From Eublepharis macularius (taxonomy: Eukaryota > Chordata > Lepidosauria > Squamata > Eublepharidae): a stretch of 64,000 bases of DNA. The notes under the pieces are model-generated. The model was not told the DNA's origin. It ran no database searches and saw only the letters and a program-made list of their open reading frames with translations. Of the stretch, positions 2,219-36,000 are shown piece by piece. The position numbers were made by a program, and so were the translations under genes. Positions within the stretch are counted from its first letter, which is position 1, and every line of letters begins with the position of its first letter. The DNA is taken from NCBI RefSeq assembly GCF_028583425.1, contig NC_072794.1, positions 26,719,232 through 26,783,231 on the forward strand, given 5' to 3'.

Positions 2219-3960
2219 TTTGTTATGTGCTGTCAAGTCGCCTCCGACCTATGGCAACCCTATGAATGAAAGACCTCCAAAACATCCTATCATTAACAGA
2301 TTTGCTCAGATCTTGCAAACAGGAGGACGTAGCTTCTTTTATTGAGTTCAGCCATCTCGTTTTAGGTCTTCCTCTTTTCCTACTGCCTTCTACTTTTCCT
2401 AGAATTGAGTGATTCCGCACACGTTGGATAATGCACTTCCAATCCTCTTTATAGATCATTTGGAGCAGATTTTTTCGTGTGCGGAACAAAAAATCCACCT
2501 CAAACGATTGATAAAGTGCATTGAAAGTGCATTATCCAATGTATGCGGAATCAGCCATTATTGACTTTTCCAGAGAATCCTGTCTTCTCATAATGTGACC
2601 AAAGTATGATAGCCTCAGTTTTATCATTTTAGCTTCTAGGGAGAGTTAAGGCTTGATTTGATCTAGTATCCGCTTATTTATCTTTTTGGCTGTCCATGGT
2701 ATCCGCAGAACTCTCCTCCAGCACCACATTTCAAATGAATCAATTTTTTTCCTGTCAGATTTCTTTACTGTCCAACATTCACATCCATGGGTAATACCAT
2801 AATTTGGATTATCTTGATCTTGATACCCAGAGAGACATCTTTATCTTTAAGGATCTTATTTAGCTCTGTCACAGCTGCTATTCCAAGTCTCAATCTCCTT
2901 CTGATTTCCTTATTGCAGTCTCCCTGTTGGTTGATGATTGAGCCAAGGAATAGAAAATCTTGGACAATTTCAATTTCCTCATTGTCAACTTTAAAATTGT
3001 GTAACTCAATAGTCATTACTTTTGTCTTCTTGAGGTTCATATGTAATCCTGCTTTGGCGCTTTCTCCTTTCACCTTCAACAGTAGTTGTTTCAAGTCTTC
3101 ACTATTTTCTGCCAGTAATGTGGTATCATCTGCATATCTCCAATTGTCAATGTTCCTTCCGCCAATTTTTACTCCAGCTTCTTCTAGATCTAATCCTGCT
3201 TTCCTTATGATATGCTCTGCTGAACAGGTAGGGAGATAACATGCCTCCTTCTGACACTTTTGCCAATTGGAAACCATTCTGTTTCCCCATGTTCTGTCCT
3301 AACAGTAGCCTCTTGTCCAGAGTACAGATTGCACATCAAAACAATCAGATGTTGTGGCACCCCCATTTCTTTTAACACTATCCATAGCTTTCCATGATCC
3401 ACACAATCAAAAGCTTTAATCTATAAAGCTATAATCTATAAAGCGCAGGCTGATTTTCTTCCGAAATTACCTGATGCATTCCATTAGCCATTGCACATTT
3501 GCGATGTGATCTTTAGTGCCTCTTCCTTTCTTGAATCCAGCTTGAACATCTGACATTTCTTGTTCCATATATGGTAAGAGTCTTTGTTGTAGAATTTTGA
3601 GCACCACTTTGCTTGCATGGGAAATTAATGCAATAATCCAATAGTTGTTGCACTCTTTGGCATTCCACTTTTTTGGAATTGGAATGTAGACTGAGTATTT
3701 CCAGTCTGTGAGCCATTGCTTTGTTTTCCATATTTGTTGACAGATTCTTGTTAATATTTTGATGGGCTCCATTTCTGTAGCTTGAAATAGCTCTATTGGT
3801 ATTCCATCTACTCCATGTGCTTTGTTTCTCCCAATTGCTTTGAGTGCAGCTTTTACTTCACTTTCTAAGATTTCTGGTTCTTCATCAAAGGGCTCTTCTT
3901 CAAAAATATTTGTCATCCTTCCATCTCTTCTGTATAGTTCTTCAGTGTATTGTTTCCATC
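2219..3960 (-). mobile_element. RTE/BovB-type LINE, 5'-truncated and broken
   Basis: The minus-strand frames encode reverse transcriptase pieces: AALKAIGRNKAHGVDGIPIE, VQAGFKKGRGTKDHI, then the catalytic NWRYADDTTLLAENSEDLK, and the C-terminus GSRKRGRPKTRWLNSIKEAT...FWRSFIHRVA. This is the BovB pattern common in squamates and ruminants. The 3' end begins at TGTTATGTGCTGTCAAGTCG. The frame shifts several times, including one at about 3250, and a 144-bp MITE sits inside. It no longer encodes a working protein. Confidence 0.9.
2410..2553. mobile_element. 144-bp MITE nested in the BovB LINE
   Basis: Terminal inverted repeats of about 28 bp begin TGATTCCGCACACGTTGGAT and end ATCCAATGTATGCGGAATCA. 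Compared with the expected LINE reading (KSIMLGKVEG), the flanks hold TCAATAAT on one side and TCAATTCT on the other, which fits an imperfect 8-bp duplication. A hAT-like origin is an inference from that size. Confidence 0.7.
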
Positions 3961-6082: not shown

Positions 6083-9000
6083 CTGCATAGTAAAAAAGAA
6101 AGAAAGAAGAGTACCCCAGTGGTTACACATTCCATCAGATCCAGATTCAACTCTGTCTTGGCTGTGGTTTGTCAGGATACTTAAGTTTGATTTACACATT
6201 TATAACAGGCATAGGACAGCTACATGTCAGAGTAAAAACCAGGGTGAATTATGATTACTTCCTACATGAATGCAGCTCCCCCATCCCAGACCAGACAATG
6301 CCCACACAAGAAAAAGCTAGGGTTGATGATTTGCTTGTCTATGTGGCCATACACATACACTGGACCTCTATATGCACAGCAGGATGCTCCGATAGAGTTG
6401 TAGCGTACCCTATGCATTCATTTAAAATATTTATACCCCAATCTTTTTTAAAAAAATATCAGTGTGATTACCAACAGGAACAAACATTGAAGATACTCAG
6501 GCTAATAAAAGTTTAAATTCTTATAGGTATCAGAAGGGTTTGCATGTGAATCAGAATCAACTAAGCCACCTCTTTGGTTCCCAGAACATGCAGATGACTA
6601 GGGGTGTGTGATTTGGGTTTTGGATTCGGGTAAAGTACCCAATTCAAACCCGATTCGCAATTATTTGGAAATCCTGAAACAAAGCTTCCCAAAGTGATTC
6701 GTACCACTTTGGGAAGCTTTGGGTCAAGGGGTTTAAATGCCTCTTTCCATGCCGCTACGAAGCAGCACAGAAAGGGGCATTTAAACCTGTGGATCAGCTG
6801 TTTGGCGGGGAGATCCCCGCCAAGCAGCTGATCCAGCCGGGGGATTTAAAAGTCCCTTTCCATGCTGCTGCTGCTCCCCCTCACTTCAGTATGCTCCGAA
6901 TTTTTACAGAGCATACCGAAGCGAGCTAAATACCAGAATCCTGAAGCGGCTTGCCGCTTTGATATTCTGGTAATTCCAGATTTTTTTCCTGCTTCGGGTA
7001 AACCTGAAGCGGGAAACCCTAATTTTGGGGGGGGGGGGGGGTGCACACCCCTACAGATGACTAACCAGTGTGCCTGGTGTGCAAGAACTTATTTTGAACA
7101 CCTATACTTAACAACCATCATGGCTCATCTTGTCACCTGTGCCATGTTGCATTTTTTAGGAGCAGCACGGCTGTAAACTCCAGAGTACTATTAGTTTCAC
7201 CACCTAGAAAGATACACCACAGACTGTTGGATGCTACTAGACTATCACTACAGTAGGATTCATATACTTTGGTTGTACAGGAATACAATTTTGTCATAAG
7301 CCCAAAAGTACCATTGCATTTGTCCACAGGAAAGGCAGGCAATTCTGGAAGAGGATGGAACTTGCCAGAAAGCAATCTGCTTGCATCCAGAGTAATCTGA
7401 TTTGGGTCTGCTGACTGCTGGGAATGAACAATGGCAATGTAGAACTCTTCCGGCATCCGTGACAAGGAATCAGTTGAACTTCCAAGAGAGGCAGTTGTCT
7501 GCAATCAAATGGAACAGAAAACACTGGATTTACCATGAGGGTTTTTTTCTCATCAGTGGCATGAAGATATCCAGAAGTGGGTTACACCCCCTAGCTACTC
7601 CACAGGCAGGGCTGCGCAAATCACTTTTGCATCTCTTCCACATGTGGCTAGGGGGAGAGCCCGTTTATGCTTGCTAAGCATCAAGTCAAAAAGAATTCTT
7701 TGGCTCTTTCACAAAAACCACACCTTTAAAAAGTCATACCTTTCCTGTCCCAGAAAATTCCTCCAATCACATGGGAAGAAATATCTTTGACGGAGAATTA
7801 ACTTGTGGCTGTGGTACAGGATGTCATCCTGGTGAAGAAAACCACTGTAGAGGGCATTAGTGGAGTCTGGCGCAACAAACAATGCTGATGCAAGATATCA
7901 TAATGCCTAGCACACATGCTAGGACCATGTTATTGGCAGAGACTGAACATGTGAGGGGTAGGAGAGCTTGCTGGATGTTGGATATTCTCTCTACTAGGAA
8001 GGAGATCCTGCTGCTGTTTATGTCTATGTGCCCAGGTGGATAACGAATTGGGCCAGTTAGCAAGCTCTTTGGTGACTGACCAGGAAACCATGTTTCATTA
8101 GCACATCAGATGTTGCTGCCACATGTCTGGTTGCTCTGTCTCTGGATGGGAATTGGATCAGAAGGTCATCTAGGTAGAGGAATAGGTTCTGTCCTGAGGT
8201 GGACTGCTGGAATGACCATCAGCTTGGTGAAGACATAAGATGAGGCTGATAGGCTGAATGGAAGTGCCCTGTACTGGAAGAACTTTTTACAATAAGCAAC
8301 ACAGGAACTTTCTGGACATGGGGTGGATAGGCACATGTATGTAAGCCTCCTTGAGATCTACTGATGCAAGGGCTCCACTATGGAATGGAGGATTTTCATG
8401 CAAGAATGTTGTTTACGGACCCTTTTGTTGAGATGTTTTAAGCTGGCTCTCCAGTCTTCATTTCTCTTGGGCACAACAAACAAGGCAGAATAAGTTCTGG
8501 AAAATTTTTGAGTCTCCAGGACAGGCTTTATCACCTGAATGTCCAAGACACGTCTTATGGCTTGTATCACCAGAGCATGTTTTTGATTGTTCTTGAATCA
8601 AGGGAAGGGGAGAAATTTGTGGAGAGTGTCCAGGCTGGGGCAGAGGTCTAGGAGTCTGAGCAGGTCAGTGGAAAACCCTCAAGTCCCCTTTGTTGTAGCA
8701 GATCAAGATGGGTAGCCATATTAAGTCTGTCTGTAGCACTGGAAAAGAGCAAGAGCCCAGTAGCACCTATAAGACTAACCAAGTTAGCGGTAGGGTATGA
8801 GTTTCGCTTCTAGTGAGTTGTGGCTCATGAAAGCTTATTAATTTCATTAGTCTTATAAGCGCTACTGGTCTCTTGCTCTTTTCCATTGTTGCAGGCAGAT
8901 TGTACGGTCTGAGGCAACTCCTTGGTAGAGAATTTCAGTCTCACAGGCACTCTGGCTAGGTGATGAGGAAAATCCTGTTGCAAGGCTGGTGCTGCAACGG

Positions 9001-12000
9001 AGGCCTCCCGACCACTCCCCTTTCTCTCTCAGACTGCAAGTTAGAGTCTGAGAGCCAAGCTACAAGTGACGTCTTACACAGGTTGGACACTAGTCAGCTT
9101 CCCTCAAGTTTTGATGGGAAATGTAGGCGCCCTGGTTTTACAGCTTGGCTCTCCATTACAGCTGCAAGACCAGGATGCCTACATTTCAGTGCTCCAATGA
9201 GGCATCCTCGCTGTGCACACTGGGGAGGTGCATGGATGGGCAGTGCCTCTCCAGGTGATTTTTGGGAGAGCTTTTGCATCCTGATGACCTTCATGCTTTG
9301 TGAGGGCTAAAATCTTGTTAGTGTCGTCTTTGCTTTCTAGGTTACGTTCACTTTTGAAATGCAGTTCAAATGCATCCAAAACGGAGTGAGGCAGGGCATG
9401 GACTGGGGCTTGCTCCCTATCTGGATGTGGAAGCGGTGCAAATGTAATTTGCAAAGCCCTGCCTGCGGATTGGGTAGGGGGGTAACCCACTTCTGGATAC
9501 CTTCCACCACTGAGAAACAGCCTTGTTCATTGCATGAAGAAACCTAAGGGCCAAGTCATATTGTGTATTCACCCAGACATTTATATCCAGTCCATTTCTC
9601 AAATCATTCAAGGCAGCTTGAAGTCTATAGACCAATATTGCACTAAAACATAGCAAAAAGAAGCCACTTCTTGCAATGGGAAACAATGAACATTTAGAAA
9701 CAATTGTTGCCAATCAGTACAAATATGGCAGCGCGCCTACAAACAACTCACATACTAGATGGAAACCAGGTCTGGCAAGCTATTTGCTTGAAGCAATATT
9801 TGCCTGAGATATGCTGCCCATTCCAAAATCTCTTAATTTAGCAGAATTTGAAATGTTTCAGAATTTGCAGCGTTCTCCTAGCGAAAGAACTTTGTTGAAT
9901 GAGAGTGGGAGCAAACAGGGTTAACATACAACAGTAACTAATGGCCTTGGGACTGGGACACAGCTATACAAGGACAGAAGACACACTTTAACATCATGGG
10001 AAGCCTCTAGAGGTCACCTGATGCTATTGACAGGTTTGGAATGATCCTAGAAGCCACAAGAGTTGCAGAGAAATGCACATGAACAGAAACTTACAGGAAC
10101 TTCAACAAACCATTATTTTGGCTGTGTAATTTTTAAATCAGGATGTTTAGTTTTATCAACTGCGATACTGGAAATATTGAAATGTCCACATTCTACCATA
10201 AATTATTTATGTTGCTTTTAAAAAGGGTGAAGTGATGCTGCTGGATAGACCACAAAACCCAGACAAGGGGCAATCTGAACGAAGTCCCTATCTTGGCAGA
10301 CAGAATGCTACTAAGGGCTACAGGACAGGGGCTCTCTCTCAGAGGAAGCAATCGGGAGTCTGATTAATTACATGAGATGCTAAGCGTGAGGTGAGTTGGG
10401 GGGAAAACCCCAACACAACTTGTGTTTAACATGTACTTGCGCTCACATCAAAAAGATGGAGGGCAGCGCTCCCAAATGCACATACGGAGCAAGATAGACT
10501 TCATCGGTCCCTGCTTTCCACCCAGCACACTTTTGCAGACAGAAAAGGTCCGGGGGGGGGGGGGGGGAGGCTGTTTCTCTTACTGCCCATCCCACGTGTC
10601 TGCTCAGGAGACGTCTTTGGCAATAAGATGAACAGTATGCCTCCGCATTGCCCTTTTCTGCAAAAGTGCATTTAGCATCTTGTGTAATTAAACCCTGGTT
10701 TGGTTCAGGTTTTTATGCCTTTACTAAGGCAGGCTGACCATTTAACTCACAGGGAAATTTTCTGGCGGACCACTGCCTAGAGGGCCACTGGTCTCCAGCA
10801 GCAAAAACAGCAAAGCCCAGCAGCTCTTGCTAATGCCTCAGGGGCCACTTAACGTCGGATCCTTCATCAGAGACTGTGTTTGGTGTCAGCTCACAAACTG
10901 TCTCCTCCCACTCTGCTGCCAATTTTTAGGGAGGAAGAACAAAGGTTGAATTAATGCCCATTGCTGGCACTGCTGAACTGAATGGCCCCAGCAATACTGA
11001 CTTGTAGCACTACAGAGGCCGCTCCGCTCCAGAGCAATTTTTCCTTCCTGGTCTAATCCTGGCCTTTTACCATTATCCTCATATTTACCATAGATTTAGA
11101 GCTATTTCCAGTTTGAGCCTTTGGAATAATGAAAGAGAGCCAGTTTGGTGTAGTGGTTAAGAATGTGGGACTCTAATCTAGAGAACCGGGTTTGATTCCC
11201 CACTCCTCCACTTGAAGCCAGTTGGGTGACCTTGGGTCAGTCACAGCTCTATCAGAGCTCTCTCAGCCCCACCCACCTCACAGGGTGATTGTTGGGATAA
11301 TAATGACGTACACTGTAAACTGCTCTGAGTGGGTGTCAAGTCATCCTGAAGGGCAGCATATAAATCAGTTATTATTATTGTTGTTATTAAAATAGAGATA
11401 AATGTATGTAAAAGGACAAGAACCATAACATCACCCAATAGTTCATTGCCCTCCCCTCCACAACCACCACCTGTTGTTCCGGTTCTTGGCTACGCGGGGC
11501 CTCATTATTGCTCCCTTTGTCACTCCGAGCCTGGCTGCAAAATTCTGCAACGCTAGAGCACAAATTATCACGAGAATCGTCTTTTTTTTCTTCTTCAACA
11601 CATAGGAGAGGTTTCCAGTCCTCATCCCAGATTTCTGGGCATAAATAGACAGGCTCCAGGTATGGCATCTCGGGGACAGAGTTCAGGCTGGATGTATCCT
11701 AGAAAACAAATCAAGACAAGGTTCCATTAGTATCTACTTTACAAAAGTAGCCAGAGTCCAGTAGCACCTATAAGACTAACAAAATTTGTGGTAAAGTATG
11801 AGCTTTTGTGAGTCACACGTCACTTCTTCAGAATGTGAGTTCATCTGTCCTTATATCTTGGTGAGCAGAGTGGTTTCAGATAGCGAATGACAACAGCAGT
11901 TAATTGACAGAAGCCAGTGAATGACAATAGCAGATGGGATTGGTCAGGGTGGGGTATGCAGAGGGGTGGTGGCTGTGGAGAAATCAGCATTGGTAATGAG

Positions 12001-15000
12001 ACAAGAAGCCTAGGTCTCGATTCAATCCAGGTGGTGGATTGTCCTGAGCTTCATTATCAGTTGCAATTCAGCAGTCTCTCTTTCTAATCTCTCTTTGAAG
12101 TATCTCTGCAGGATAAGTGCTACTTTTAGGTCAGCAACTGAATGTCCTGGAAGGTTAAAATGTTTCCCCGGTGCTTTTTTAATAATGTGGTTTTTGATGT
12201 TAGACTTATAAGAGTTAGTTAATTCAGTTGCAGAAATCAAGAATAATGATAACGTGATTCCCAACATTCTAAATGCCTTGGCAAGGACCATGATGATGAT
12301 AAAAAAAAAATCAGAAACTAGACCATGCAAGCACTGCCTTGCTGGATCAGATCGGGGCCCATACAATCCCACATTCTGTCTTCAACAGGGCACAGAGCCT
12401 TCCTTTAACTGTCCCCAGCATCTGGTTTTAAGGACGACTGAAAGAGGGGGAGGAAAGGACATCATATATGCTTTGGGATGAGGAGAAAGGAACAGTGACT
12501 GGCCACTGTACATGCAAGAGTAACTAGGGTTTGGTTTTCCAGAGAGGAACAACCAATTCCCTCAGAAGTGAACAAATAAATTGTGCTTGGGGACATGAAA
12601 TCATGTGCAATGCAAATCATACACAGGACTGAATTACACCCAACCAGCATCACCTTTTAAAAATCTCATTCTCATGTGCAAAGCTCCAGGTGCCGTTTTA
12701 GAACCAAGGTAACTTTATCAGAATGTTTGCAGTCCCATGCAGAGCTAAGCATCATAAGCAGATTGTTGACAACAAACCTCAAAGCCATGGCAGATCTCAC
12801 TCAATGGGCTTTCGATACTCAACACTAATGACAAAGCTGAGCCCTGTGGTACACCACAAGAAAGCTCTCAAAAAGGGGTCACTAGCATCGGCAGGGCTCA
12901 TTTCGAGGGGGAACGCATAGGAACACAGTTCCAGCAGTTCTCCAAAGAGGCCACATGTCAGGTCGGCCCCATCCACCTGACTTTCAGCCATTTGGGGCCC
13001 ATTTCAGCCTGGATTGGGGCCAAAACAGCCTGGATTGGATCGGTGCTGGGTGGGGAAACCCTCCCCTGCCCAGCACTGACCCAATCTGGGCTGTTTCGTC
13101 CCCAAACCAGGCCCAAAGGGGCCCAAAATGGTCACTTTCAGTCATTTAGGGTCCCTTTTTGCCATTTTGAGCCCAATTTTGGCCCTGAATGGCCAGGATT
13201 GGGTCCAAAACAGCCAGGATAGGTGATGTCAGGGGGTGTGGCACATGCAAATCAGTTATGCTAATGACACACTTCTGGTGATGTCAAGGGGTGTGGCATA
13301 TGCTAATGAGTTATGCTGATGAGCTCCTCCAGCTCTTTTTCTACGAAATGACCCCTGAGCATCGGTAAGGATATCACTTTAGCACAAACAAAAAAATTAA
13401 TGGAGTGATGATAAAGTGAGTCTTAATAGCCAAGTTAGTTAAGAACATTTCAGCATCCTGCTTTCCATAGCGGCCAACATGAAGCTTTTTGAAAAAAACA
13501 GAAGGAGGGCATGATGTCTCCATGTCTTCCTCCCCACTTATTGTCCTTTGTTCTAAGTTAGAGGAGCCCCAACTATTTCAGTCTTTCCCCCATTTATTTA
13601 CGTACTGCAGAATTTGAGGTCTTCAATAATGAGGAGTTTAGAAGGGTTGAGAAACCCTCTTCATCTTTGCAAGGTTCTGAATGTGCTGTTCTTGGGAGAT
13701 CCTGAAGCAATTCTTGCTGAAACAAGGAAGCATCTGCCTTTTCCAAACCAACCTGTTCCTCAGGACTGGGCTGCAGATATAAAGTGGAAGGATTCAACTC
13801 TCCAAATCGCTGTTAAGACAGGGAAAAAGGACAGTCAAGGAAATATTTTACATTTGTCAGGGGAAAAAAATCTGAGTGGTATTTCCAAACACTAAAAATC
13901 TGCTTCATAACAGAGACCAGGCATAGTGATCAAATATCTTCCAATTTACAGGTTCTTATTAAAATGCTATTACACACTGTAATGTCTGTCATAGTTGTTT
14001 TATCTTTTAAAACTTTTTTAACCTTTGCCTTTGGACCTTTAATCCAGCTCCTCCTTACTTTACCTTAAACTTGTACCTCAGGAGGGCTCCGGTCACAGCC
14101 AGCATTCCTTTTAGTTCTGCTCACACAGAGCTTCAGGTGTTCTGTATTTTACCCAAGCTTCTACCTCTAGAACATCTGTTTGTGTGACCTGTATATTACT
14201 GCCTTCCTGATTCCCTCAAAATGTTTTCACTGCCACCAAAAGCTTTCGCCTTAGACCTCCTTGGTTTAACTGGTAATATAGGAAGTCTTGTTATACCTGG
14301 TAGTTTGAAAGAATGGTCAGCACATGAGGGTAATTGTGTGGAGGAATATTTCTTGCTTAAACAAAATTACAATTGATAAGAACATGAGCATGATGGCTGC
14401 ATAGTTGTGATAAGCATATCAGTTTTGGAATAGTTCTTAAGTTGGTGGTTTCACAAGTAAGTATCTCTTCTTAAAGGTATAGCCACAGACTCAGTCACAC
14501 AGTAATTTTCCACACAGGTCTTCACTAATTGAATAAACTCTCATCTCATCCACACCGACAGATTCACTCAGGACTTTCCACACAGCTTGCCTGACCTAGA
14601 CTAGACATGGGCACGAACCATGAAAAAACTGAACCGTGCGGTTCGTGGCATTTTCACGAACCACAAACCACGAACTCCACAAACCAGGGGCAAGTTCACA
14701 AACTGGTTCATGGGGTTTAAATGCCCCTTTCCAGCCGCTTGGCAGCGGCAGGGAAAGGGGCATTTAAACTTGCCAATCAGCAGCTTGTCGGTGAGATCCC
14801 CGCCAAGCAGCTGATCATTTAAAGCTGATCATTGCAGTGGTAGGGAAAGGGGCATTAGTGTTTACAAACCAAATGAACCAGTAGACCAGTTCGTGGGAGT
14901 TTGCGGAAACAAGCTTCTATGAACCGCTGGTTCGCAAACCATGAACCAGACTGGTCCGTGGGGTTTTTTGGTTCGTATTCTGGTTCGTGCCCACCTCTAA

Positions 15001-18000
15001 TCTAGACAGATTAATCTCTCTCTCAGATACATACAAACTGATCTAGGCATGCACAGTTTGGCAACAGAATTAAGCTCTCAGACTTCCACGCACGTTGGGT
15101 GATTTAACCAGAATCTTCCAGCTGGTTAACTTTCTCTCAAAAACACAGAGACAGGTATGAAGAAGGGAGCTTTGACTCTTGAAAGCTTATACCGTGAAAA
15201 TCATGTTGGTCTCTAAGGTGCTACCGGACTCAAATCCTGCCACACAAAGAGCTAAGCTACAAGAGACGAATTACACAAGAACGCTCACGTGAAGGGAGTC
15301 GCAATTTAGCCAGAAAGCTGAGTTTTAAAAGAGATCGGAAGGCTTTGTCAATTTCCTCTTGCTACAAAACCACCACAGATGCTCCTCAGAGGGTTTATTT
15401 ATTTCCTGTTTGCCTCCTAGCAGGGGAGGTGACACTGACAGAGCCTTTGGAAGGAAGAGGAAATTAACAAACCCTCTGAGGAGGGATCTTTGCCTACTCT
15501 GTGGAGAAATTGACAAAGCCATCCAATCTCTTTTAAAACTCAGCTTCCCCGATAGCATTGCAACTCCCTTCACGTGCACGTCCTTGTGTAATTCATCTCT
15601 TGTAGCTTAGCTCAAAGACTCTCTTCTCAGGCTCCACACAGTTTGCCTGACTCAACTAGAATGAATACTTTCTCAGCTACACAGTAAAAAAACAGTAAAA
15701 AAAAATTAAAAACCACATCAGCAAGCAGAAATAAAATCCAAACAGTTTAGATGCAAAATGTTACTTGCTGAAACAAGGAAGCATTTTCCAAACCAACCTG
15801 TTCCTTGGGGTTGGGCTTCAGATATGAAGTGGAAGGATTCAACTCTCTGAAACCCTGTTGGACAGGAATAAAGGAGAGTTAAGGGAATATTTTACATTTA
15901 TCAGGAAAAAATCTGTTATTTACAAACAATAAAATTGTGCTCCATAACAGTGATCAGGCATAATGACCAAATGTCTTTCATTTTACTGATTCTCACAAAA
16001 ATGCTATTACACACATTACACTAAGAGGCTGGAACCTATACCAAAAGTGTTAAGAACAACTCCATATAAAATCATCTGTATTAAATCCATAGGCACCAAA
16101 ACTGAAAGGCAGACTGACCTAGGGAGACGTGGCAAGTAACTAGCCTGTCTATGAGCCCTTCTCACTGTGTGGTCCCTCATCATATTGATGTTTGCTGCAG
16201 TGAAAACATGGAGTGTATGCACATGTCACCAAAATGCTCAGGGTCATATATTAGGGTTTCACAACTGGAGGCAGATCTCTAATAGTTTCCATTGCACAGG
16301 TGGGCACTTTCAGATTCCCATATCCTCTTCATTCTCGGCATGTTTACAGCATCAGACATTGGCTACCAATGTGAAGTGGTTCTTTCTGTGGCCAATGAGC
16401 TCTTGCCCAAGTTCTCCTGACAAGTCACAATATTCTTAGCATTCCTACATCATAAGCCCACTCTGGTTTGAGATCTCTGGGATCTTGGACATGTGGATGA
16501 AGCTGAAGTTGGTTCCCAGTTCCTAATTTGCAGTCCCTTATTTACATATCCAAATACAAATATTAGGGAAAATTAAAAAGCTGTGTCTCAAAATAAGGTT
16601 TAGAGCAGCATGTATCATACACCCCCACATTTGGGGACTCTGCCCTCTAAGTCGGCCTATGATGGTTCCTCTCCAGTTCTTGAGCTAACCGCTTCAAAGC
16701 GTGCCACGTCTAGACAAAAGCACATGCAAAATCATGTGCCCCAAACAATCTTTGAACCTCCACAATTCATACACCTCACACTCTGGAAACTGTCCCCCAC
16801 AGGACAAATGGAATCTCTTCGAAAAATTTCAGTACTCTTGCCAATCGACCGTTCCGGGGGGGGGGGGGGGCGGGATCATGTGAGTTACTGATTATCTGCT
16901 GTGGTGGAGGTATGGCCTCCTCTGCAGTTTCATAAAATCAACACAATGGATCAAATAACCAAAGCAGATCAGTTGAAATCGTCCTGAGAGCCAGTTTGGT
17001 ATAGTGGTTAACAATGGCAGGACTCTAATCTGGAGAACCGGGTTTGATGCCCCGCTCCTCCACTTGAAGCCAGCTGGGTAGCCTTGGGTCAGTCACAGCT
17101 TCTCAGAGCTCTTTCAGCCCCACCCATCTCACAGGGAGATTGTTGTTGTGGGGATAATAATAACACTCTTTGGAAACCACTCTGAGCGGGTGTTAAGTTG
17201 TCCGGGCAGTATATAAATTGAATGTTGTTGTTGCTGTTGTTATTATTAAACCAAGAAAAAAATCAAATTTATATCAATTATTTATTGTTGAAAAAACATA
17301 CCAGCTAGTTGATATTAGCAAATTGCCTCTACGCAACAAGTAGCAATAATCTAGAATATGGAACATGGTCTAATCCACATGGTTTTTCAACTTCAGAGCT
17401 ATCAGCCTGGAGTCTAGGTAGTCAATAGTAAAATTAAAAAATATTTTGGATTGTCTCTGTCTGTACACCTGTAAAGCCAATAACCAATGCAAAATGCCAG
17501 AACCTTTCAAAACCATTAGTTGGTAGTTACTGATCAGAACGTGACAGAAAATGAAGGCTAAATTCAGCTACAGCTGTTAATTTCCCCATTCGTTTACATG
17601 GAAGGGTAAAGCACAAAACTCATTATCTCCCTCTGAAGTCAGTAAGTCTTAAAAGGGTTTTACTGTAGCTGATTTGGGCCCTGAATAACAATGCAGTTTA
17701 GTTAACTGTCATAACATCCCTAACTGGCCAGAACAGCACAGCAAAGGGAGCTGGCGGTGGTGAGAGGGAGCTGAGCAGACTAGATGAGACGCCTAGAGAA
17801 AGAACCTCTACCAGGGAGAAGAGGGATTCTCTCCCTCTTCTCCTTGGCAGAGGTTCTTTCTCATTACACTTCCCGTGGAACCTTGCAGGAAACTGACGTG
17901 TGTTCTCCATACGCCAGGCGTCTCGTCTGTTTTGGCTCTTTGAAACAAAAGTTTCTAGCTACATCCTTCCTCTCAGCAAGCTTCTGCCGTCAGACAGAAA

Positions 18001-21000
18001 CCCTTTTTTTGCTTTGGTTTAGTAGGGAGAGTTTTTTTTTCTTGGCTTAGGAAAGTTCACTACAAACCAGTACTGACCCTTGCTAAGGCAAGAGCCATGC
18101 CCTATTTATATACATATTAATTTCAATGATCCCCCCCACCCACAGACACACACAGGTAGCCTCTACAATAACTGTCTTTCTTTCACCTTGGAAGGAATGT
18201 TCTCGCTACTGATGACTGCGTGGCCTTCTATTCTCAGTACATTGTGAAAATAGACATCTTCTTCAGAGCTGGTGTCACAAAGGAAAAGATAAAGGACACC
18301 ATCTATGTACTCATCCACCACTCCTACCAGCAGCTTCAGCCCACACAGCCTTTGGAATTCGAGTATGGCGCCAGAAGTCCAATCCCCCTTGAACAAAAAA
18401 AAAAAGATAAGCACAAAGACAAGCAAAACAAACTCCCCCAAAGTCAGGGAGAAAAACTGGAAGAGACATTAATCACTGATTTATACAGAGGGCACCATTC
18501 CAGTGCAGACAACACAACCCACCATGTGAAGTCCCTGTGGTGAAGAAGCCAGGTTGTCACAGCGACTAGACTGGTGGGCTACCCAAATTGCCAATCAACC
18601 ATGATGCTCACACTGAGTAACCTGGACCAGTTTTGCTTTCCTAGCATGAACTGCTTCATAGGGTTGAGAAGATAAAATTTGGGGAATGAGGAACATATCA
18701 TCCTGACAGAGCTCATTGAATAAAGGGTATAATAAAAGATCTATTTCATTAAACACAAAGACAAATTACAGGTACATGTTCACTTGGGGATGGTAGTATC
18801 AAGTGGTGACTTGCACACGTGAACAAGCCATTACAGATCTAACCCCATCCACTGAAACATCTATCACCTCACCCCCACAAATGCTATGTTTTTCATGCAC
18901 ACAATGATGAGTTTGCAAGTCCTGGAAAGTTTAGTGATGTACCTGCAGTGACATACCAACTTCAAAATAATTCAGAGAGTGTCACAAGTAGTCTTTTAAA
19001 CAAATGGCTAACTCCTTATGAACAAATCACAGGCTGAGGCAGGCTAGGGGGAAATCTGGATATTTGGCTCCTTCACTTCTAACAAATGAGACTGCAGCTT
19101 CTATTTCAAACTCTGATGACAGATATGGTCAGGTCTGAGCAGAGATAGAAGAAACTCTAAGTGGACATTTCAGAGTGAAAAATACTGGCTATTACTTCTG
19201 CACATCAACTAAGCAAAAACTGTATGCAGAGAGGCAGTCTCAGTGCATATCCCACAACTAAACAGTATTGAAAGATTATTACTATGGCTGAACTTTCATG
19301 CTGCTTTGTTAAATGTCATTCTCTTTATATCTATGTATGTGTGAGAGATGAAGTGCTCTTAAGTTGTTACAAATAACTAAACTCTGAAACATATACATAC
19401 CATTGCAGGCTTCATCTGGGCTAAGGAACAAGGAATAGCCTGGGCAGGAAGGTTTGCATAGCAGTCCCTGAAACATGAATAAAGCAGTAAAGCATAAAAA
19501 CTGGAAAGCAACAACATATGGAATCTCATTCTGCCTGCTGACTGGGCGTTCCAACAGGCATCTTTACGCGTATCTGTTAATTTATTTTTTTTAAAAGTCA
19601 ACCCTCTAAACATGGAAATTAACACCGGTTATCAAAAATGATTATCAACACTAACAGTCTAATGCCACATTTAATTAACTATATCAGACTCTGCTGTCCT
19701 GTATGGGAAGAAAGTAGATTACTCCAGACCAGAAGGAGAAGTGGAATAAGAACAAAACAGTCAGGAGGATTTGAACAAAGAACTTTGGGAATAGATTAAT
19801 AAGGGATGATTGGTAAATAAAGGGGCCTCAAATTTATTTTGTAAAACTTTTAAAGAGAATTTCCTATAAAAATATGATGGTTTAAGCTTTTATACAGTTG
19901 TGAAAAGGATTAATGGTTTGTAAATTAAAGATTGGAAAGGGGAATAGAAGTATTACTCTATTACTTTGGGTGGTTAATGTGTATTATTTGAAACATTAAT
20001 TTTCAGTCTAGGCCAAGGGGTTTTATGCATTAGGAAATATGGACGGTGCAGGAGAGTAAGTTTTCTGTTTTTTAACGTTATGCGGGGAAACGCTGAAGTG
20101 GTTTGTCTGCTGACAGTGGAGGGATTGGACTGGAAAGATATGGGCTCTAACTGAAATTGCCAAACTTATAGTTACAAAGAGATATAAAATTACTGTTTCT
20201 ATACATAGAAAATTGGAAGCCCTTGATGATTCTCTGTGACTAGAGAAGAAAAATGAATTAATGATCACTCTATGTTAAAATGTGGTGCTGGGATGTTAAG
20301 GAGACAAGATATGCACACACACACACACCAATGAAAAAAGAAAATTAATTAGACCACAAGCTGATTGATGTGAATAGGATGAAGTGTCATAGGGGAAAAA
20401 CTGTAATGACTAATAATACAAGTTAGTTTTCTTTTTTTAGGACTCCTAGTGTAGGCCACTCTACGCCTTTATTAGTTATATGTATTTTTCTTTTCCTTTC
20501 TGTTCCTTCTTTTAACTTTTCTATAATAAAATAAAAATTAATCCGAAAAAGAGAACAATTTTGCCACTGATTCCCAAAACAGTCCACATCAGAAATAAAA
20601 TAAATCAGAGACTTTGTAAAATTCAACTATAGTCCTTTAACTTGCGCTTTCTAGAGAGAGGCTAATAGACAATTTACTTACTTGAGAAGCCTCAGATAAG
20701 ATTTCGGCACTATCTCCATGTTTCCAAAGTCTACGTAAAACACTTCCACTTGCTTGTTGCTGAGGACACGATGGATGATACCTCGGTACCACCACTTGTC
20801 TTCTGAGTTCCTTACACAACAAAGGTGGCCAGGCTTGACTGAGGCCTCGGGTATGATATAACGGTCAGCTACATTTTTACTACCATAGCATCGTCTGAAA
20901 GATACAAAACAAAAAAATTACTAAAAGACTAATTCCTACATGCCTGAGGTCACCAAGGAATTGTCGGGGGGGAGGCGGCGAGGGGGACAGGAGAATGACG

Positions 21001-24000: not shown

Positions 24001-27000
24001 CATTCCATATAACATTAAGGAAAACAGCACCAAGAACTTCATATAATGGAGAGACGTCAACATTTGAGATTGCTGCTATGCACAACAACATTTGTAGGAA
24101 ATTAAATGTCTCTTGTTCATACAGGAAGATATGCTGGGGGCAGGTGGGGGGGACAGAAAAATTTTGACAAGGGTGGCCTATAGCTTCATAAACCAAGTGG
24201 ACAAAATATTTAAAGCACCATGCTTTAAACTACCAAACAGTTTAATGCTATCTCACTAGAACTGGAAAATCCACTGGCCTGCAAACAAAGAATAAACGTC
24301 ACAAAATGTGTGTGTACTGTGCTGTCTAAAGTTAGTGCATGCTGGAACCCAAGACACCAATGATTTCCATGAGAAGAATGGCTAACTGCTACAGTGCAAC
24401 TTTCCTTGACAGGCCTATGGAGGATCGTGTGTGACGAGGCAGAGTCAAAGAATTTTCACCATCTTCTTAGAACCAAATGGCAGCTAGGAATGATGGGCAA
24501 CTGCATTTTCCTTAGTGGATTGCACACTTAGTGGATTGCACACTTAGTGTGTGCAAATATAAGAAATGCAACCTTCTGATCAACTATAAAAATTGTATAG
24601 TAAACATTCATATTCTCTGAATGTACATCTATGTTACCAATTGGCAAGAAGGCAGGGGAGGAATTCTCTTGGATTTGGATCCTGCGCCTTTCTCTGCTCA
24701 TGCTAGCAGCACTTCTGCTTGTGTGAGATTTCCACCAGTTTCCTCCTCCCACTGCAGGCTCCCTTTGCTCCCACCGATCGTTAGAAGTAGGATTTCAAGA
24801 TGGACTGCATGCAGGCTTATAGGGCAGCTGTGAAATGCTCACGGTGCACAGCAGTCAGTCCTTAGTATTTGGTCCAACCCATCCTCATCTTCTTGGAAGC
24901 ACTGACCCATGTAGTGCCCTCTTACCATCTGCTAAGCACTGTGAGTCAATGTCAAAGATGCGCCAATCCTGTTCCCCTTCTTTGCACTCAATATGGAGAA
25001 CATCGCTGAGGGCGCCAACAAGTTCCATCAGAGTTAAGAAACCCAAATCTCTGACTGGCAGCGTTTCTTTAAAATGTGCCTGTTGGGAAGTCAAAAACTT
25101 GCATGTCAAAGCCCATGTGGGAGTGATCTGCAGCACACTCACACCTCTCCCCACTTGCAGGAACTACATTTAAGACCTCAGCTAGTATATTTCTACAATG
25201 ATTCGACTTATGTACTGGTGAAACTTACTGGTCCCAAGGAAAGGGGAGGGGGGAGCCCATAAAGCGTTTTCTTTCTAACTGGAGACCTGTACAAAAGTGT
25301 TCTGTGAAGACACTGTTATTATCCAAAGTATTTTTAAGATTTCAGATTTTTCTGCAAACCTGAAGTGCAAACTGCTCCATCTCCAAATTAAAGAATCTTC
25401 AGATTTGTCTGCGGTGACTATTAAAATATATGATGGTAGTCTAGGCAAAAGTATTTGGAGGGCCTCACTTGCCCAGGTTGGTAGCCCCTGGGTGCAGACA
25501 TCCACATCACTCTGCTGGGATGGGGTGCTTTTCCAAGGGACTGCCCCATCATCCAAGGCCTGCTAGCTGGGGTCGTGTCTGGTTTCTGGACTTCCACTTG
25601 AGGACAGAAGGGATGGAGGCCCAATGGGCAAATAGGTCTGAACCTCACTGCCAATCATCCCCAGGGTCTGGCAGAATTGAGGCCACAGAGACTGGAGGGG
25701 CATGGAACAAGGATGGGTTGACAAGGCTGCTTCATAGGTAAGGTTGCCAACCTTCGGGTAGTTCCAGGCATTCTCCTAGAACCATAACAATCTTCAGACT
25801 ACAGAGATCAGTTCTCCTGGAGGAAATGACAGCTTCAAAGGATGATCTTTATGGCATCACATCCTTGCTGAGCTACCTCTCCAGGTACCAGCCCTCAATC
25901 TCCAGGAATTTTCCAAGCCAGAGAGCCACCCTACTCACAAAGCTTCTAGGCCCTCTGTAAACACTGGGGAAATGCAACCAGGCAATGAGTGTAATTGGCT
26001 GGCCTGAACATAAATAGACCCCTATTCAAGGAAGCACTTGAATGATATAGTTTTACTTATGGATCCATACCTTTAATGCAACCCTTCTGCCCTGTAGCAT
26101 TCCCCTATGGACATTACAGAGGGATGTAATTTGTAGGATTTTTTTTTCTGAGATTACAGGATGTGACAGGCAGGTTAAGTTCTGACTCTCCCAAAAACAG
26201 ACAGCCAATGAGAGCTAAAAATGCTGAGGCTGGTGGTAGTTGAGATCTGTCAGAACAGTTAGCAAAGAAGAAGGGTTTTGGCTGCTGATGGGAGGCAAAA
26301 GAGAGAGCTGACTTAACAGTAAACACTCACTGTTATGAATGTGTGCATACAAATGTTTGAAGCACTGCCACCATTTAATCCTTCAGACATTTTGGCTGCG
26401 ACTAGATAGAAATGTGTGTTCGTGTGTGTGTGGTGTTTCCCTAAGCCAACAGCTTCAATCCAGCCCGGGTTAAAATAAAAACAATTAACTTTTATTTACA
26501 AGATGAACAATATGGGAGTGAGTGATTCTCTGATTCTAACAGCCCTGAGCATTTAGCTGCGTGAGGGGTAATGAACTAAGGGAACTGGAGGCCTGTCCGG
26601 TGAAGCCTTTGGGGAGAGATGGGACAGAGCTCTCTAGACAGGTAGAAAAGAGTCCAGTAGCACCTTTAAGACTAACCAACTTTACTGTAGCATAAGCTTT
26701 TGAGAACCAGTTCTCTTCGTCCTGCATCTGACAAAGAGAACTGCAGTTCTCGAAAGCTTATGCTACAGTAAAGTTGGTTAGTCTTAAAGGTGCTACTGGA
26801 CCTTTTACTATCTTGCTACTAGAGACTAACACAGCTAACGCCTCTGGATCTAGACAGGTGGAGTATTGTGATTGTTCTGAACTACTTGTAAAATTCAGAA
26901 GCTGAAAAGGGAGGTTTATAGTGGGTGGCAGTGGGACTGGGGAGTCAGAAAAAATTGTTGGTTCAGCAGTATGATACCAACTTCGATCTGTTGTGTTCCT

Positions 27001-30000
27001 GAAGTAACAAGCATGATTAAAGTAGAGAACACCAGTAATTGTGAGTGTGTGGGGAAAAGGAGCTGAGTGTGAGCCTAAAGCCCTTCTGAAGTAAAAATTG
27101 AAGTTAATTTAAGAAGGCACTGTGGAGAAGGTCACAGAGAGTTGAAAGGAGTGATTTAATAAAAAGGGTTATCCTCCTGGGATAAAAAAGTTTAAAGTAA
27201 CATAAGGAGGAGGAGTAATAAAGATCTCAGAGTGTTTAACGGAAACAGGAAAGATGAGGAAAAGAGCTGACGCGCCTGAGATAAAATAAAAAAGAGTAGC
27301 ATGCAGGGAGCTGTCAACAAAATGCCACCTAAGAAAATTAAGCCTGCAGTGCTGAAGGAATGATTAGTAGAGACAGTGAAGTTGAGAAAGACCAAGAATC
27401 TTTAGAAATGCAGAGAAGCAGGGAACAACTGGCAATAGCCAGACTAGCAACTCAAAAAGAAGAAAGGGGGGAAAGAGAAAGAACAGCATGAGGGGAAGAA
27501 ACAGAAAAAAACCTGAACTAGTCTAAATGGCACATGAACAATGGAGGAATGCAGAAGGGAACAAGAACTGGAAATAGATAAAGAATTGGAAAACATCAGA
27601 ATAGAAAAAGAAGCCACAACAGAAATGCACAAACTCAGGTTAAGGAGAATGGAGAGAGTTAATTCAGTTCCAAGATTACAGGAAAATGACAATATGAAGG
27701 TAAATATGAAGAGGACCCCTCCGTTCCAAAAGGAGGAGAATGTAAAGACTAACTTTGTGAATTTTGGAGAGCTTGCCAGTATTTTAATATCCCTGACGAC
27801 CAGAGACTGAACTACGTAAGATCTGAAATTTCTGGGAATCTAAGTGAAGTTTACAGTGAAATGGGGGGTGATGAAGTAAATGATTACGATGCATTTAAAA
27901 AACAAGCAAAATAAAAATTTGGAGTAACCCAGAACACAACAGGAAAGAGTTTAGAAGTCTAAAAAAGAAACTTGAGGAGACTTATGCTCAGGTAGCACAT
28001 AATCAGACTGGTTATTAAAACACTGACTGGAGAAAGCTGAGAGCTGCAAGGATGTTACCAATTTCATAGGACTGGAACAGTTTTACAAAATTTTACCTGC
28101 TGAATATTTCTGGCAGGTACAAAGATAAAGAGGCCAGGAATGGTAGTCAAAGCTGCTGTGATCATAGATAAACTGGTATTAATGAGGGGAGAGACAGGGA
28201 AGAAAAATTTCTCCTCAGAAAATTAATGTAAAAAGGGTAAACCACATAAAGAACCTCACCTCTCTGATAAAACCTACACAGGAGGTGGAAGGCTAGAGGA
28301 ACACCTCAGGGCAGAGATGAGAGATCACGGAAAATATTTTATCCGTAGGGTGAAACCAGACACTTGTGTTATAATTGCCCTCAAATGAATAAACAAACAG
28401 CCCCTATAATACCAAAACAAGTAAATGAAATTGAGCAAGAACTGCCTGCCATGCTGCCTTAACAGTTAACACCAACTGGCATAGAAGGCTTATAATGTTC
28501 AGAGACTCCTGTGGAGAGACAAACCCTAGAGAGATCATTTGCCATTTTAAGTTCAAGGTAGGACAGAGTGTGTGAGACACACACACCTGAGAAAGGCATA
28601 GATCCTGAGTATCCAGGATCCAGTGAACCTATCGTAGTGGAGAGATGCCAAGAGTTAGAATGGAGGGACTCGGAGCCAAGCTAAAAGTGACACCTAACAC
28701 AAGGAGGACACGTGTCAGTTTCCTGCAAGTTTTGACTGTTAGTGTAGGCGTCATGTCTGGCTTGTGGCTTGGCTCTAAGAGCTGATCTGGGTAGGGCTGA
28801 TAGAAGGAGTTGTTCACCAATCGCCTCCCTGCTCGCCCCGATGGCCCTCCTGTAGCTCGAGGGTTCTGCCAGAACGAGCTGCTGGGCCGTGCTGTCCAGA
28901 GGCAAGATGGAAAGCACCCCCACCCAAGAGAGGACCTGGCCACGCAGCCCTCTCAGCTCCCCAGCTCAGGTACCCAGGTCCTGGAGCACAGGCAGAGCCC
29001 CTCACTGCAGGGACCACCCCCCACCCCCATACACAACCACGGCCTTGCCCTGCCACTGCATCTTGGAGGCAACTGCCGAGGGAGTGCAGTCCCAGCCACA
29101 CTCCTGGCTCCTCTTGGCCCAGTAGGGTGAGGTGGCAGCCAGGAAAGCTCACCCTGCCAGCCTGGCCACAGCCTGGCCCTTTGCCCCAGCCAGATCAAGC
29201 GACTGCTAACCTCAGGTGGCTCCAGGAGAAGTGGAGTGCGACCAGCTCATTGGGCACAGCCCATCACCAGGCCACAGAAGGACAAGACAAATGCCCAGCG
29301 AGCCCACGACACCCGACTCAGGCCATGGCCTGACCCCGCATGGCTCCAGGAGAGGGTGGGGGTGGGGTGCAGCCCACCTGATTGCGCCCAGCCTGCTGCT
29401 GGGCCACAGGAGGAAGGAACGACCACCAGGTGAGCACACCCGGCCCAGGCCATAGCTCATCCCCCACCCACCAAAGGGCTGCGGAGCCAGTGTGTGCGCC
29501 GCTCAATGGCGCCACGGGCCGAGGTCGTCCCCACTCCCCGTTGCAGGCGTGGGGCCACAGGACAGGCATGGGCAACCAGGCATCTGGACTGACCGCCGCC
29601 CCCAGCCCCCAGTTGCTGGGAAGGAGCTGAGCTGGCAGTGGCAGTCAGACAGGCAGAACCCTCAAGCTGCAAGAGGGCCATCAGGGTGAGCGGCGAGCAG
29701 AGAGGTGATCAATGAACAACTCCTTCCATCAGTCCGACCCAGGTCAACTCTTAGAGTCAAGCAACAAATCAGACAGGACGCCTACACTGCCAGCCAAAAC
29801 TTGCAGGAAATTGACACGTGTCAGGCGTCACTTGTAGCTTCAAACCTCTCAGGGTCTGCAGTGAGTGTCATCAAACCCTACTTAGTGAAATCATAAAGCC
29901 TAGGAGGGGAGGAAAGCATCATAACTAAGGGTCTGGAAGCACCTGCTTTCCTATTACTGTGGCCAAAGTCAACTTACAATATAAAAGACTGAGGGCGGGG

Positions 30001-33000: not shown

Positions 33001-36000
33001 GCCGCTGCTTTGGCCTCTGCAGCAGCACAGGCAGCGCCAGCATTCACTGCCGCCCTGTTGCTGGCCGCCGCTTCGGCCTCTGCAGAGGCCAAAGTGGCGG
33101 CGGTGTTTGCTGCCGCCTTGCTAGCCATCACAGAGACCTAAGCGGCAATGTCAGCGGCGCCAGCTGCAGCCTTCCCCACCGCCCTGCTGGCCGTGGTGGC
33201 AGCGACAGAAGGCCTGCTCCGGCCTTCAAGGTCAGTAGGGTTGGGAGAAGGGGGGCACAGGGGGGAGGTGGGAATCTGTCTTTGGTATGCTCCGAATCAT
33301 TTCGAAGCATACTGAAGCAATTTCCAAAAATCCGAACCTGAAGCAGCTTGCCACTTCAGGTTTTGGGTTATTCTGGATCGTTTTCCCACTTTGGGTAAAT
33401 CCGAAGCGGGAAACCTGAATCTTTTCCCCACTGCACACCCCTACTTGTCTCTACAAGAGAATGAAGAACTATTTACAAGCATTCTTTGGATGCAATCTGT
33501 CAACCAGTTACAAATTCGCCTAACAGTAATAAGATCCAAACGACATTTTAATCAACTTGTCAACAAGAATATCATGTGGAATTATCAAAAGCCTTACTGA
33601 AATCAAGATAAACTATGTCCACAGAATTTCTCTGATCCAGCAAAGTAGTAACTCTCTCAAAAAAGGTAAGGTTAGTCTGACATGACTTGTTCTTGAGGAA
33701 CCCATACTGGCTCTTAGTAATCACAGCTGTCTTTTCTAAATGCTCAAGGACTGATTGATTTGTTCTAAAACCTTTCCAGGTATGGACGTCAAGCGGACAG
33801 GTCCATAGTTACTTGGATCCCTTCTGGAAGATGCCAACAATTACCCCCCTCTAATATTCTGGGACCTCATCTGTTCTCCAAGAATTCTCAAAGATGGTAG
33901 ACACTGGGTTCGAAATTGCATCACCGAGGTCTTTTAGTGCCCTAGGATGCAATTCATCTGGCCCAGAGGACTTGATTTCATTTAAAGAAACTATATGATT
34001 AAGTACCACCACTATGCCTACTTTAGGCTGCAACTCCCTTCCTTCATCATGTGTTCTCTTTTTGCCAGATTGAGTGCAACTTTCCTTGCAAGAGAAGACC
34101 AAGGCAATGTAGGAATTGAGCAGCTCTTTATCACCTATTAAAATTCTACTTTTCTCTCCCCGAAGTGGGCATACCACTTCCTAGTTCTTTTTTTTCTGAC
34201 TATAACCAAAGAACTCTTTTTTGTTGTATTTAGTATCTTTTGTTAGTTTAAGCTCATATGGAGCTTTAGTCTTCCTGACACTGTCTACAAGCATGGACAA
34301 TTTGTTTATATTCATTCTTGTTTATATGGCTCTCCTTCCATTTCTTAAATGTGTCTCTTTTATTTTTAGATCTTTAGAAAGGTGTTTATGGAGCCACCCT
34401 GGTTCCTTTAGGTTCCTCCTATTTTTTTTTCTTATTGGAATAGTCGGCGATTGTGCCTTTAATCTCTCGCTCCACTCATATTGAATTCCATTCTCCCTGA
34501 TCATTGCTGATCAAAAGATTCTACCCAGCATAATTTTAAGCTTGTAGAAATTAGCTTTTCTAAAATCCAACCTATATGTCTCACTATGTTCAGCTTTCCC
34601 CTTCCCGAAAATCTTAAAATTCCAAAACTACATGATCACTACTACCCAGGGTGCCTACTACTTTCACCTAATCAACCAGTTCTCCCCTGTTGGTGAGAAT
34701 CAGGTCCAAGATAGCAGATCCCCTTGTTCCCTTTGTTATGCACAAACTTGTGCCTTAGGTGTCCCTCTCGCCAATCACAATAAGAGACACACACACCATG
34801 GAGTCCTGTAGAATGAAGCAATATATGATTGTTTAATTTAAACAATGGAGGAGCCCCTTTATCACAGGAGTAGGTGGTCTCCTTATGTCTGGAGCTCATC
34901 AAAATTACAATAGAAGCACAGGCAATTAATACTTTCAGATAATCATAACAATATTACAATATTCTAATATTTGATATCTTATTGGCTCATAACATATCTA
35001 GGGTCAGTTCTGATTTGAAGATGCAATTCTGGGCTGGCCCCTCTATTTGGGGGAATTCCAGTCTTCACAGTTTTTTTTTCCTCTGCCCTCATTTTGGAAG
35101 GACACTGTCTAACCTTTTACCTACTTTCTTCTTGGCATAATACTTTCAAGGGCGCCAATGAGTCTCACTCTGGTGGATAGGAAGGGATGTTTTCCTATTC
35201 GTGCCCTTTTCCCCAGTTTCTTCTCAGCTTTAAGGAAGATAATACCACAGGTGGCCAAAACCAGCTTGCTGGGTCAAATCAGTTTTCTACAAAAGGCTCT
35301 CTGGTACTGATTTCTACTGGAATCTATAGAATAATATAAGTGCAGCCCTAAAAGCAGTATATCAGTTCTTACAGAGTTTCAAGTCTTCTTGTTTCAAGTG
35401 TCAAATTCTTACAGGTTACATTACAAAGTACTACTTTGGCTCCTGAGCATAGAAAACGTGCAAAGCATGTAATACTGAAAAAGCATAGGTTTAGTATATA
35501 AAAATAAGTATATAAAAACCCTCCAAATCTATATCCATCACCTTCTCCACCTTCTGGAAGATGAAGTTGTTAGTAAGACAAGTCAGGAATTTATTAGACC
35601 TTACATTTTCAGTAGTTTTCCCAACAGCTATAAGGGTAATTGAAATCTCCTATGACCATGATGTATCATCTCTTTGAATTTTTAAAAATCTGGTCTACGA
35701 GTGTACCACCCAAATCCTCCCCCTTGCAGACGCCTACCATAATCTCACTATTATTTCTTTCTCTTTTTATTTTTACCCAGAGGCTCTTAGCTGACCTTGC
35801 ATTCATGTGTTTCCTCACAAGTATATACATCACTGACATATAATGCTACTCCTCCCCCTTTCCTTATTCATCTATTCCTTTTAAACAAGTTGTACCCCTT
35901 CAATCCTAATATTTCAACTGTGAGTCTTTACATGCCTGATATACAATTGCAAATCTTTTCCACAGTACCCTATAATAACACTTCAACACAGCTTAGTCTC

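Follow-up and report, generated by a model that had tools for sequence, protein, structure and literature searches.

Aberrant proviruses of HIV and of avian vectors, in the cases described in PMC5041404, have one normal end, another end that is often truncated, and duplications of host DNA that run to hundreds or thousands of base pairs. Two further phenomena are relevant here, namely, tandem exon duplications and substitution events involving duplicated exons, which in the examples given in PMC9013439 and PMC9741552 leave neighboring, homologous, frame-neutral exon copies in one gene, and exonization, in which mobile elements contribute splice sites.

The locus described here lies in the germline gene TDRD5 of Eublepharis macularius, within a stretch of 64,000 nucleotides that we refer to as the window. 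As in the aberrant integrations of PMC5041404, one junction of a mobile element is normal, the other is slightly truncated, and a long duplication of host DNA stands in place of the 5-bp one; unlike the cases presented there, this is an old germline event, and the element, only putatively retroviral, stands alone without a provirus. As in the exon duplications of PMC9013439 and PMC9741552, homologous and frame-neutral exon copies are neighbors within one gene, but unlike the cases in those papers, the TDRD5 copy comprises only the 5′ part of an exon, and a mobile element intervenes whose edge gives the donor. As in exonization, a base of the element participates in a potential splice site, whereas the body of the exon is a copy of a host exon and only the candidate donor is at the element edge. 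A literature search found no work combining an endogenous retrovirus, exon duplication, and target site duplication, and none joining TDRD5 with “exon duplication.”

TDRD5 and its duplicated segment

The exons translated from the minus strand contain three matches to LOTUS domains (OST-HTH, 6.4e-13 and 4.6e-9, with a third, partial match at 9.9e-7) and a single Tudor domain (9e-23), the same pattern that PMC5760656 gives in its account of TDRD5 architecture. The predicted protein thus fits TDRD5, the identity proposed in the earlier note, and the gene is present at one locus: a genome search with the protein from the Tudor domain to the tail returned 19 matches from 33 candidates, of which 7, including all of the near-identical ones, are at the TDRD5 locus and the remaining 12 are Tudor-type stretches elsewhere (29 to 44% identity; contigs C1 and C6). 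No TDRD5 retrocopy that would reveal splicing was seen among these 19 matches, and viral contigs, scanned for DNA resembling TDRD5, gave three pattern matches and no relatives. The tail that follows the Tudor domain is covered by no reported match in Pfam or in solved structures. With exon ends predicted from sequence, the features of the region are as follows.

18187..18387, minus strand: exon T4, upstream, closing the extended Tudor region and ending in phase 0
15765..15854, minus strand: candidate exon A, 90 nt, 30 codons, phase 0-0, open, with donor CAA/GTAACA (slash at the exon end) on the element edge
13606..13809, minus strand: exon B, 204 nt, 68 codons, phase 0-0, 3′ end predicted
11471..11698, minus strand: exon C, downstream, 228 nt, starting in phase 0
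15764..16014, minus strand: copy A of the duplicated segment (segment U), with intron end, acceptor, and first 30 codons, from direct repeat alignment and genome search
13713..13977, minus strand: copy B of segment U, with intron end, acceptor, and first 32 codons, from the same two sources

An alignment of the two copies of segment U has 265 columns, 14 of them gap positions, and 81.5% identity, and the repeat scores 284 against a best score of 29 in 200 single-base shuffles. Within the window, each copy matches only the other, and a search of the genome (2.24 Gb) with copy B gave two first-look candidates, both of them at TDRD5; since segment U occurs in exactly two places in the genome, it is not a dispersed repeat. 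Besides the acceptor and some 160 bp of the intron before it, each copy takes in no more than the 5′ part of the exon, and because just 30 (copy A) or 32 (copy B) of the 68 codons of exon B were copied, the duplication is a partial one.

The earlier note had reported a repeat of about 260 bp covering part of a TDRD5 exon, its acceptor, and upstream intron, with both exon copies open in phase 0, a 6-nt in-frame indel between them, and a 30-codon exon in the copy near 15.8 kb, whose donor falls at the end of similarity; all of this is borne out. Its description of a tandem duplicated coding exon holds in that homologous exon copies are adjacent in one gene; copy A, however, stops inside the exon if exon B ends at 13606, so that the whole exon with both splice sites was not copied, and what separates the copies is not a plain repeat unit (see below). 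That the duplication is an artifact of assembly is hardly credible: it was seen in one assembly only, but of 251 columns compared between its copies 34 differ, and there are indels besides, which is far above read error or allelic difference.

The junctions of T4, A, B, and C are all in phase 0, and the inclusion of A, of B, of both, or of neither would therefore remain in frame. We considered and rejected mutual exclusion of A and B imposed by the reading frame, as every combination stays in frame.

The element between the copies

The spacer between the copies of segment U, about 1.8 kb long, is made up as follows (none of these features is assigned a strand).

13978..15764: dispersed element, a solo LTR or other TGTAATG...CATTACA element, with nested repeats, from genome matches and comparison of ends
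13978-14604, 14997-15153, and 15614-15764: the element’s own pieces, from genome matches
14605..14996: nested palindromic repeat, its edges being the gap between element pieces
about 15158-15239: further nested repeat inside the spacer element
15249..15613: nested fold-back repeat, dispersed in the genome, from genome matches

The main piece of the spacer (13973-14605) resembles at least 37 other places in the genome at 76 to 80% identity, with smaller matches among those listed at 14997-15153 and 15613-15764, and at least three genome matches stop at 15764, the edge of copy A. These counts are a lower bound, as 40 of 16,292 candidates were scored in the search with the whole region. The pieces keep the same order within single copies elsewhere, and, dispersed repeats aside, the spacer shows no similarity to other parts of the region, for which reason a larger tandem unit was rejected. 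Nor is the region a plain 2.05-kb tandem unit, since a dispersed element interrupted by nested repeats fills the spacer.

Element ends, read in 27 copies, are TGTAATG...CATTACA, with inverted repeats matching at up to 12 of 13 bases. The TG...CA termini with short inverted repeats are as in a solo LTR, and the 4- to 6-bp target duplication of a solo LTR is found, at 5 bp, in other copies and is absent at the copy in the window. No second element copy was found near any of nine copies for which about 10 kb on each side was searched, which leaves a solo LTR or a nonautonomous inverted-repeat element, and no pairs with shared flanks occurred among 49 element flanks. We regard the element as of an integrase type of about 1 kb, either a solo LTR or a related element with terminal inverted repeats.

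Other repeats in the window were recorded in passing. The fold-back repeat at 15249-15613 has long complementary arms and reaches 87% identity with copies elsewhere in the genome, and the palindromic repeat at 14704-14816, nested in the spacer element, is 84% like window positions 6720-6833. Positions 26992-27117 match, in the opposite orientation, 5 of the 27 element stretches that were retrieved, and possibly belong to the same family. A remnant of a reverse transcriptase (RVT_1, 4.2e-8) is present at 2768-3298, beside a short inverted-repeat insertion near 2410-2560 recognized by eye, and a weak reverse transcriptase match at 33575-33808 (4.5e-4) falls under the curated cutoff.

Origin of the duplication

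The element adjoins both copies of segment U, starting at 13978 against copy B and ending at 15764 against copy A, and these positions coincide with the ends read in other element copies. At copy A, the last one or two bases of the element are missing, and one base is common to the element and segment U. The 5-bp flanks of the window element differ, as judged by eye. Among 22 other copies, the 5-bp flanks are alike at 4 or 5 of 5 positions in 11 (0.64 expected by shuffling) and identical in 4 (0.22 expected), from which it follows that this family makes 5-bp target duplications. This count leaves out the 5 of 27 fetched copies that have no recognizable right end (L005, L010, L013, L014, and L021); end motifs were accepted with up to 4 mismatches (of 11 bases on the left and 15 on the right), such that some of the 22 are doubtful, and one has only 656 bases between its ends. 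None of the 22 has a long flank-to-flank repeat (scores of 14 to 26, versus 284 here).

Divergence places the element and segment U at similar ages. The element differs from its 27 relatives by a K2P distance of 0.193, or about 0.097 per lineage if the relationships are star-like, and the relatives differ from one another by 0.195 (150 of 351 pairs); the intron part of segment U gives 0.169, or about 0.085 per lineage. At a neutral rate near 1e-9 per site and year, the insertion and duplication would perhaps date to the order of 100 million years ago.

One event is favored by the agreement in age, the exact abutment, and the lack of a target duplication, and a long host duplication without the short one is what aberrant one-ended integration leaves. 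We therefore prefer, at a rough probability of 0.55, a reading in which a single aberrant one-ended integration duplicated some 260 bp of host DNA and T4 is still spliced to B in the main mRNA, A being no more than a minor cassette. An element of about 1 kb, of the integrase type, would have entered TDRD5 with one end joined normally, in the intron, while host repair would have attached the other, slightly truncated, to a point in the exon about 260 bp distant. The intervening host DNA (intron end, acceptor, and first 32 or so codons) would thereby have come to flank the element on either side. The downstream copy would have retained the whole exon, and the upstream copy would have become a 30-codon candidate exon with the donor GTAACA on the element edge. 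The presence of segment U at two places in the genome, the dispersed nature of the spacer, the coincidence of the element ends with 13978 and 15764, the agreement in age, and the lack here of a 5-bp duplication that is made elsewhere all speak for this one-event integration; against it, the searches around other copies turned up no member with two LTRs, and the element is truncated by just one or two bases, which could be later slippage. The copies, the abutment, the absent 5-bp target duplication, the similar ages, and the frame-neutral phases are observed; the single-event mechanism is inferred, and so is a main mRNA in which T4 is joined to B, with A as a minor in-frame cassette at most.

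Its main rival, which we think distinctly unlikely, is a staggered double-strand break whose overhangs of about 260 bases were filled in and joined, capturing element DNA without integrase. Such a break would yield the same arrangement of element between two copies of segment U and would explain the absent 5-bp duplication, and fill-in at broken ends has been proposed for small tandem duplications in the material presented in PMC8355091; one end of the element is complete, however, and the other is short by only one or two bases, and captured fragments need not have ends so nearly complete. Improbable, too, is an origin in two element insertions about 260 bp apart, carried by different chromosomes within a population, followed by unequal recombination. 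This would account for both the exact abutment and the differing 5-bp flanks, but it requires that two members of the family landed in the same orientation no more than 260 bp from each other and that a coding exon received one of them, and there is no trace of a second element copy beside segment U. Tandem duplication of segment U alone, with the element inserted later between the copies by the ordinary route, is a common kind of event that calls for no unusual integration. We set it aside as quite improbable because ordinary insertion leaves a 5-bp duplication, which is absent here; the insertion would also have had to strike the junction exactly, and the ages are similar.

Splice sites and candidate exon A

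In the orientation of the gene, the junction reads CAA/GTAACA and the element end TGTAATG, such that the T of the donor is the element’s and the G is shared with segment U. The donor coincides with the end of similarity because it lies on the element edge. Splice sites were scored with a matrix and by pairing with the U1 5′ end. By U1 pairing, donor A is weak (duplex of −3.0 kcal/mol; 35.7% of 3,578 GT sites are as strong), as is the predicted donor of exon B at 13606 (−3.0); the matrix is kinder, giving donor A a middling 3.5 (12.8% as strong), with seven other predicted donors at 2.8 to 10.4. The acceptor of A scores better than that of B (8.7 versus 7.0). Both copies also contain a stronger in-frame donor-like site, as follows.

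15793..15800, minus strand: CAG/GTTGGT in copy A, with the same site in copy B (last exon base 13753)

This site (15798 and 13753; −8.0 kcal/mol; 2.2% as strong) would, if used, give an exon of 19 codons, and its presence inside both copies means that exon B itself may end at either 13606 or 13753. If exon B really ended at 13753, copy A would be a whole exon with its own donor, and the whole exon with both splice sites would have been duplicated.

The earlier note had allowed that the gene might include both copies, choose one, or skip one. A frame-neutral second copy makes this possible in principle, while the weak element-edge donor, the stronger internal donor, and an open frame expected by chance weigh against reading it as a sign of use. 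Within the one-event integration, exon A would be expected from these sites to be skipped or to be a minor in-frame cassette. Skipping is deduced from the weak donor, yet the donor of B is as weak and the acceptor of A better; further, the exon part of segment U is less divergent by one measure, and its substitution-free end may reflect constraint.

A tentative alternative, which we consider somewhat unlikely, is that duplicated exon A, however it arose, is functional and is spliced in alongside B or instead of it. Candidate exon A is open and frame neutral, with a good acceptor, and the 6-nt indel between A and B is in frame. A comparison of synonymous and nonsynonymous differences, which the earlier note had proposed, gives a dN/dS of 0.46 between the exon copies, on only 4 synonymous and 7 nonsynonymous changes. 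The exon K2P distance is lower than that of the intron (0.077 over 83 columns versus 0.169), but the difference in divergence is not significant (11 of 90 versus 24 of 160; Fisher P = 0.58); the placement of the 6-nt gap makes the number of exon substitutions 10 by nucleotide alignment and 11 by codon alignment. The last 42 aligned columns of segment U (13713-13760 and 15764-15805) have no substitutions, versus 34 in the other 209 (permutation P = 0.044), possibly through constraint or later conversion. Besides the weakness of the edge donor, an open frame of 30 codons survives 52 to 82% of random-substitution trials (substitutions only), so that chance suffices to explain it.

Overall, the earlier observation was right, and its interpretation, which is partly supported, was incomplete. 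The locus is best read as a partial exon duplication that a mobile element caused or accompanied, with the edge of that element supplying the donor. A bolder proposal, which we hold to be unlikely, is that a misfired integration made a frame-neutral coding exon in one step, copying the host acceptor and 30 codons and taking the donor from the element edge, and that in this lineage the exon serves to diversify the TDRD5 tail, the protein itself acting in the pathway by which mobile elements of this kind are silenced. Membership of the gene in the piRNA pathway is attractive in this respect and proves nothing about function. The locus also carries a warning, in that a donor positioned exactly where two copies cease to be alike may simply come from the edge of an element and need not point to selection. 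If the one-event integration is right, the TDRD5 locus would preserve in the germline, as a natural fossil, a failure of integration known from retroviral infections in the laboratory. It would also show how a partial exon duplication can arise in one step and bring a donor with it.
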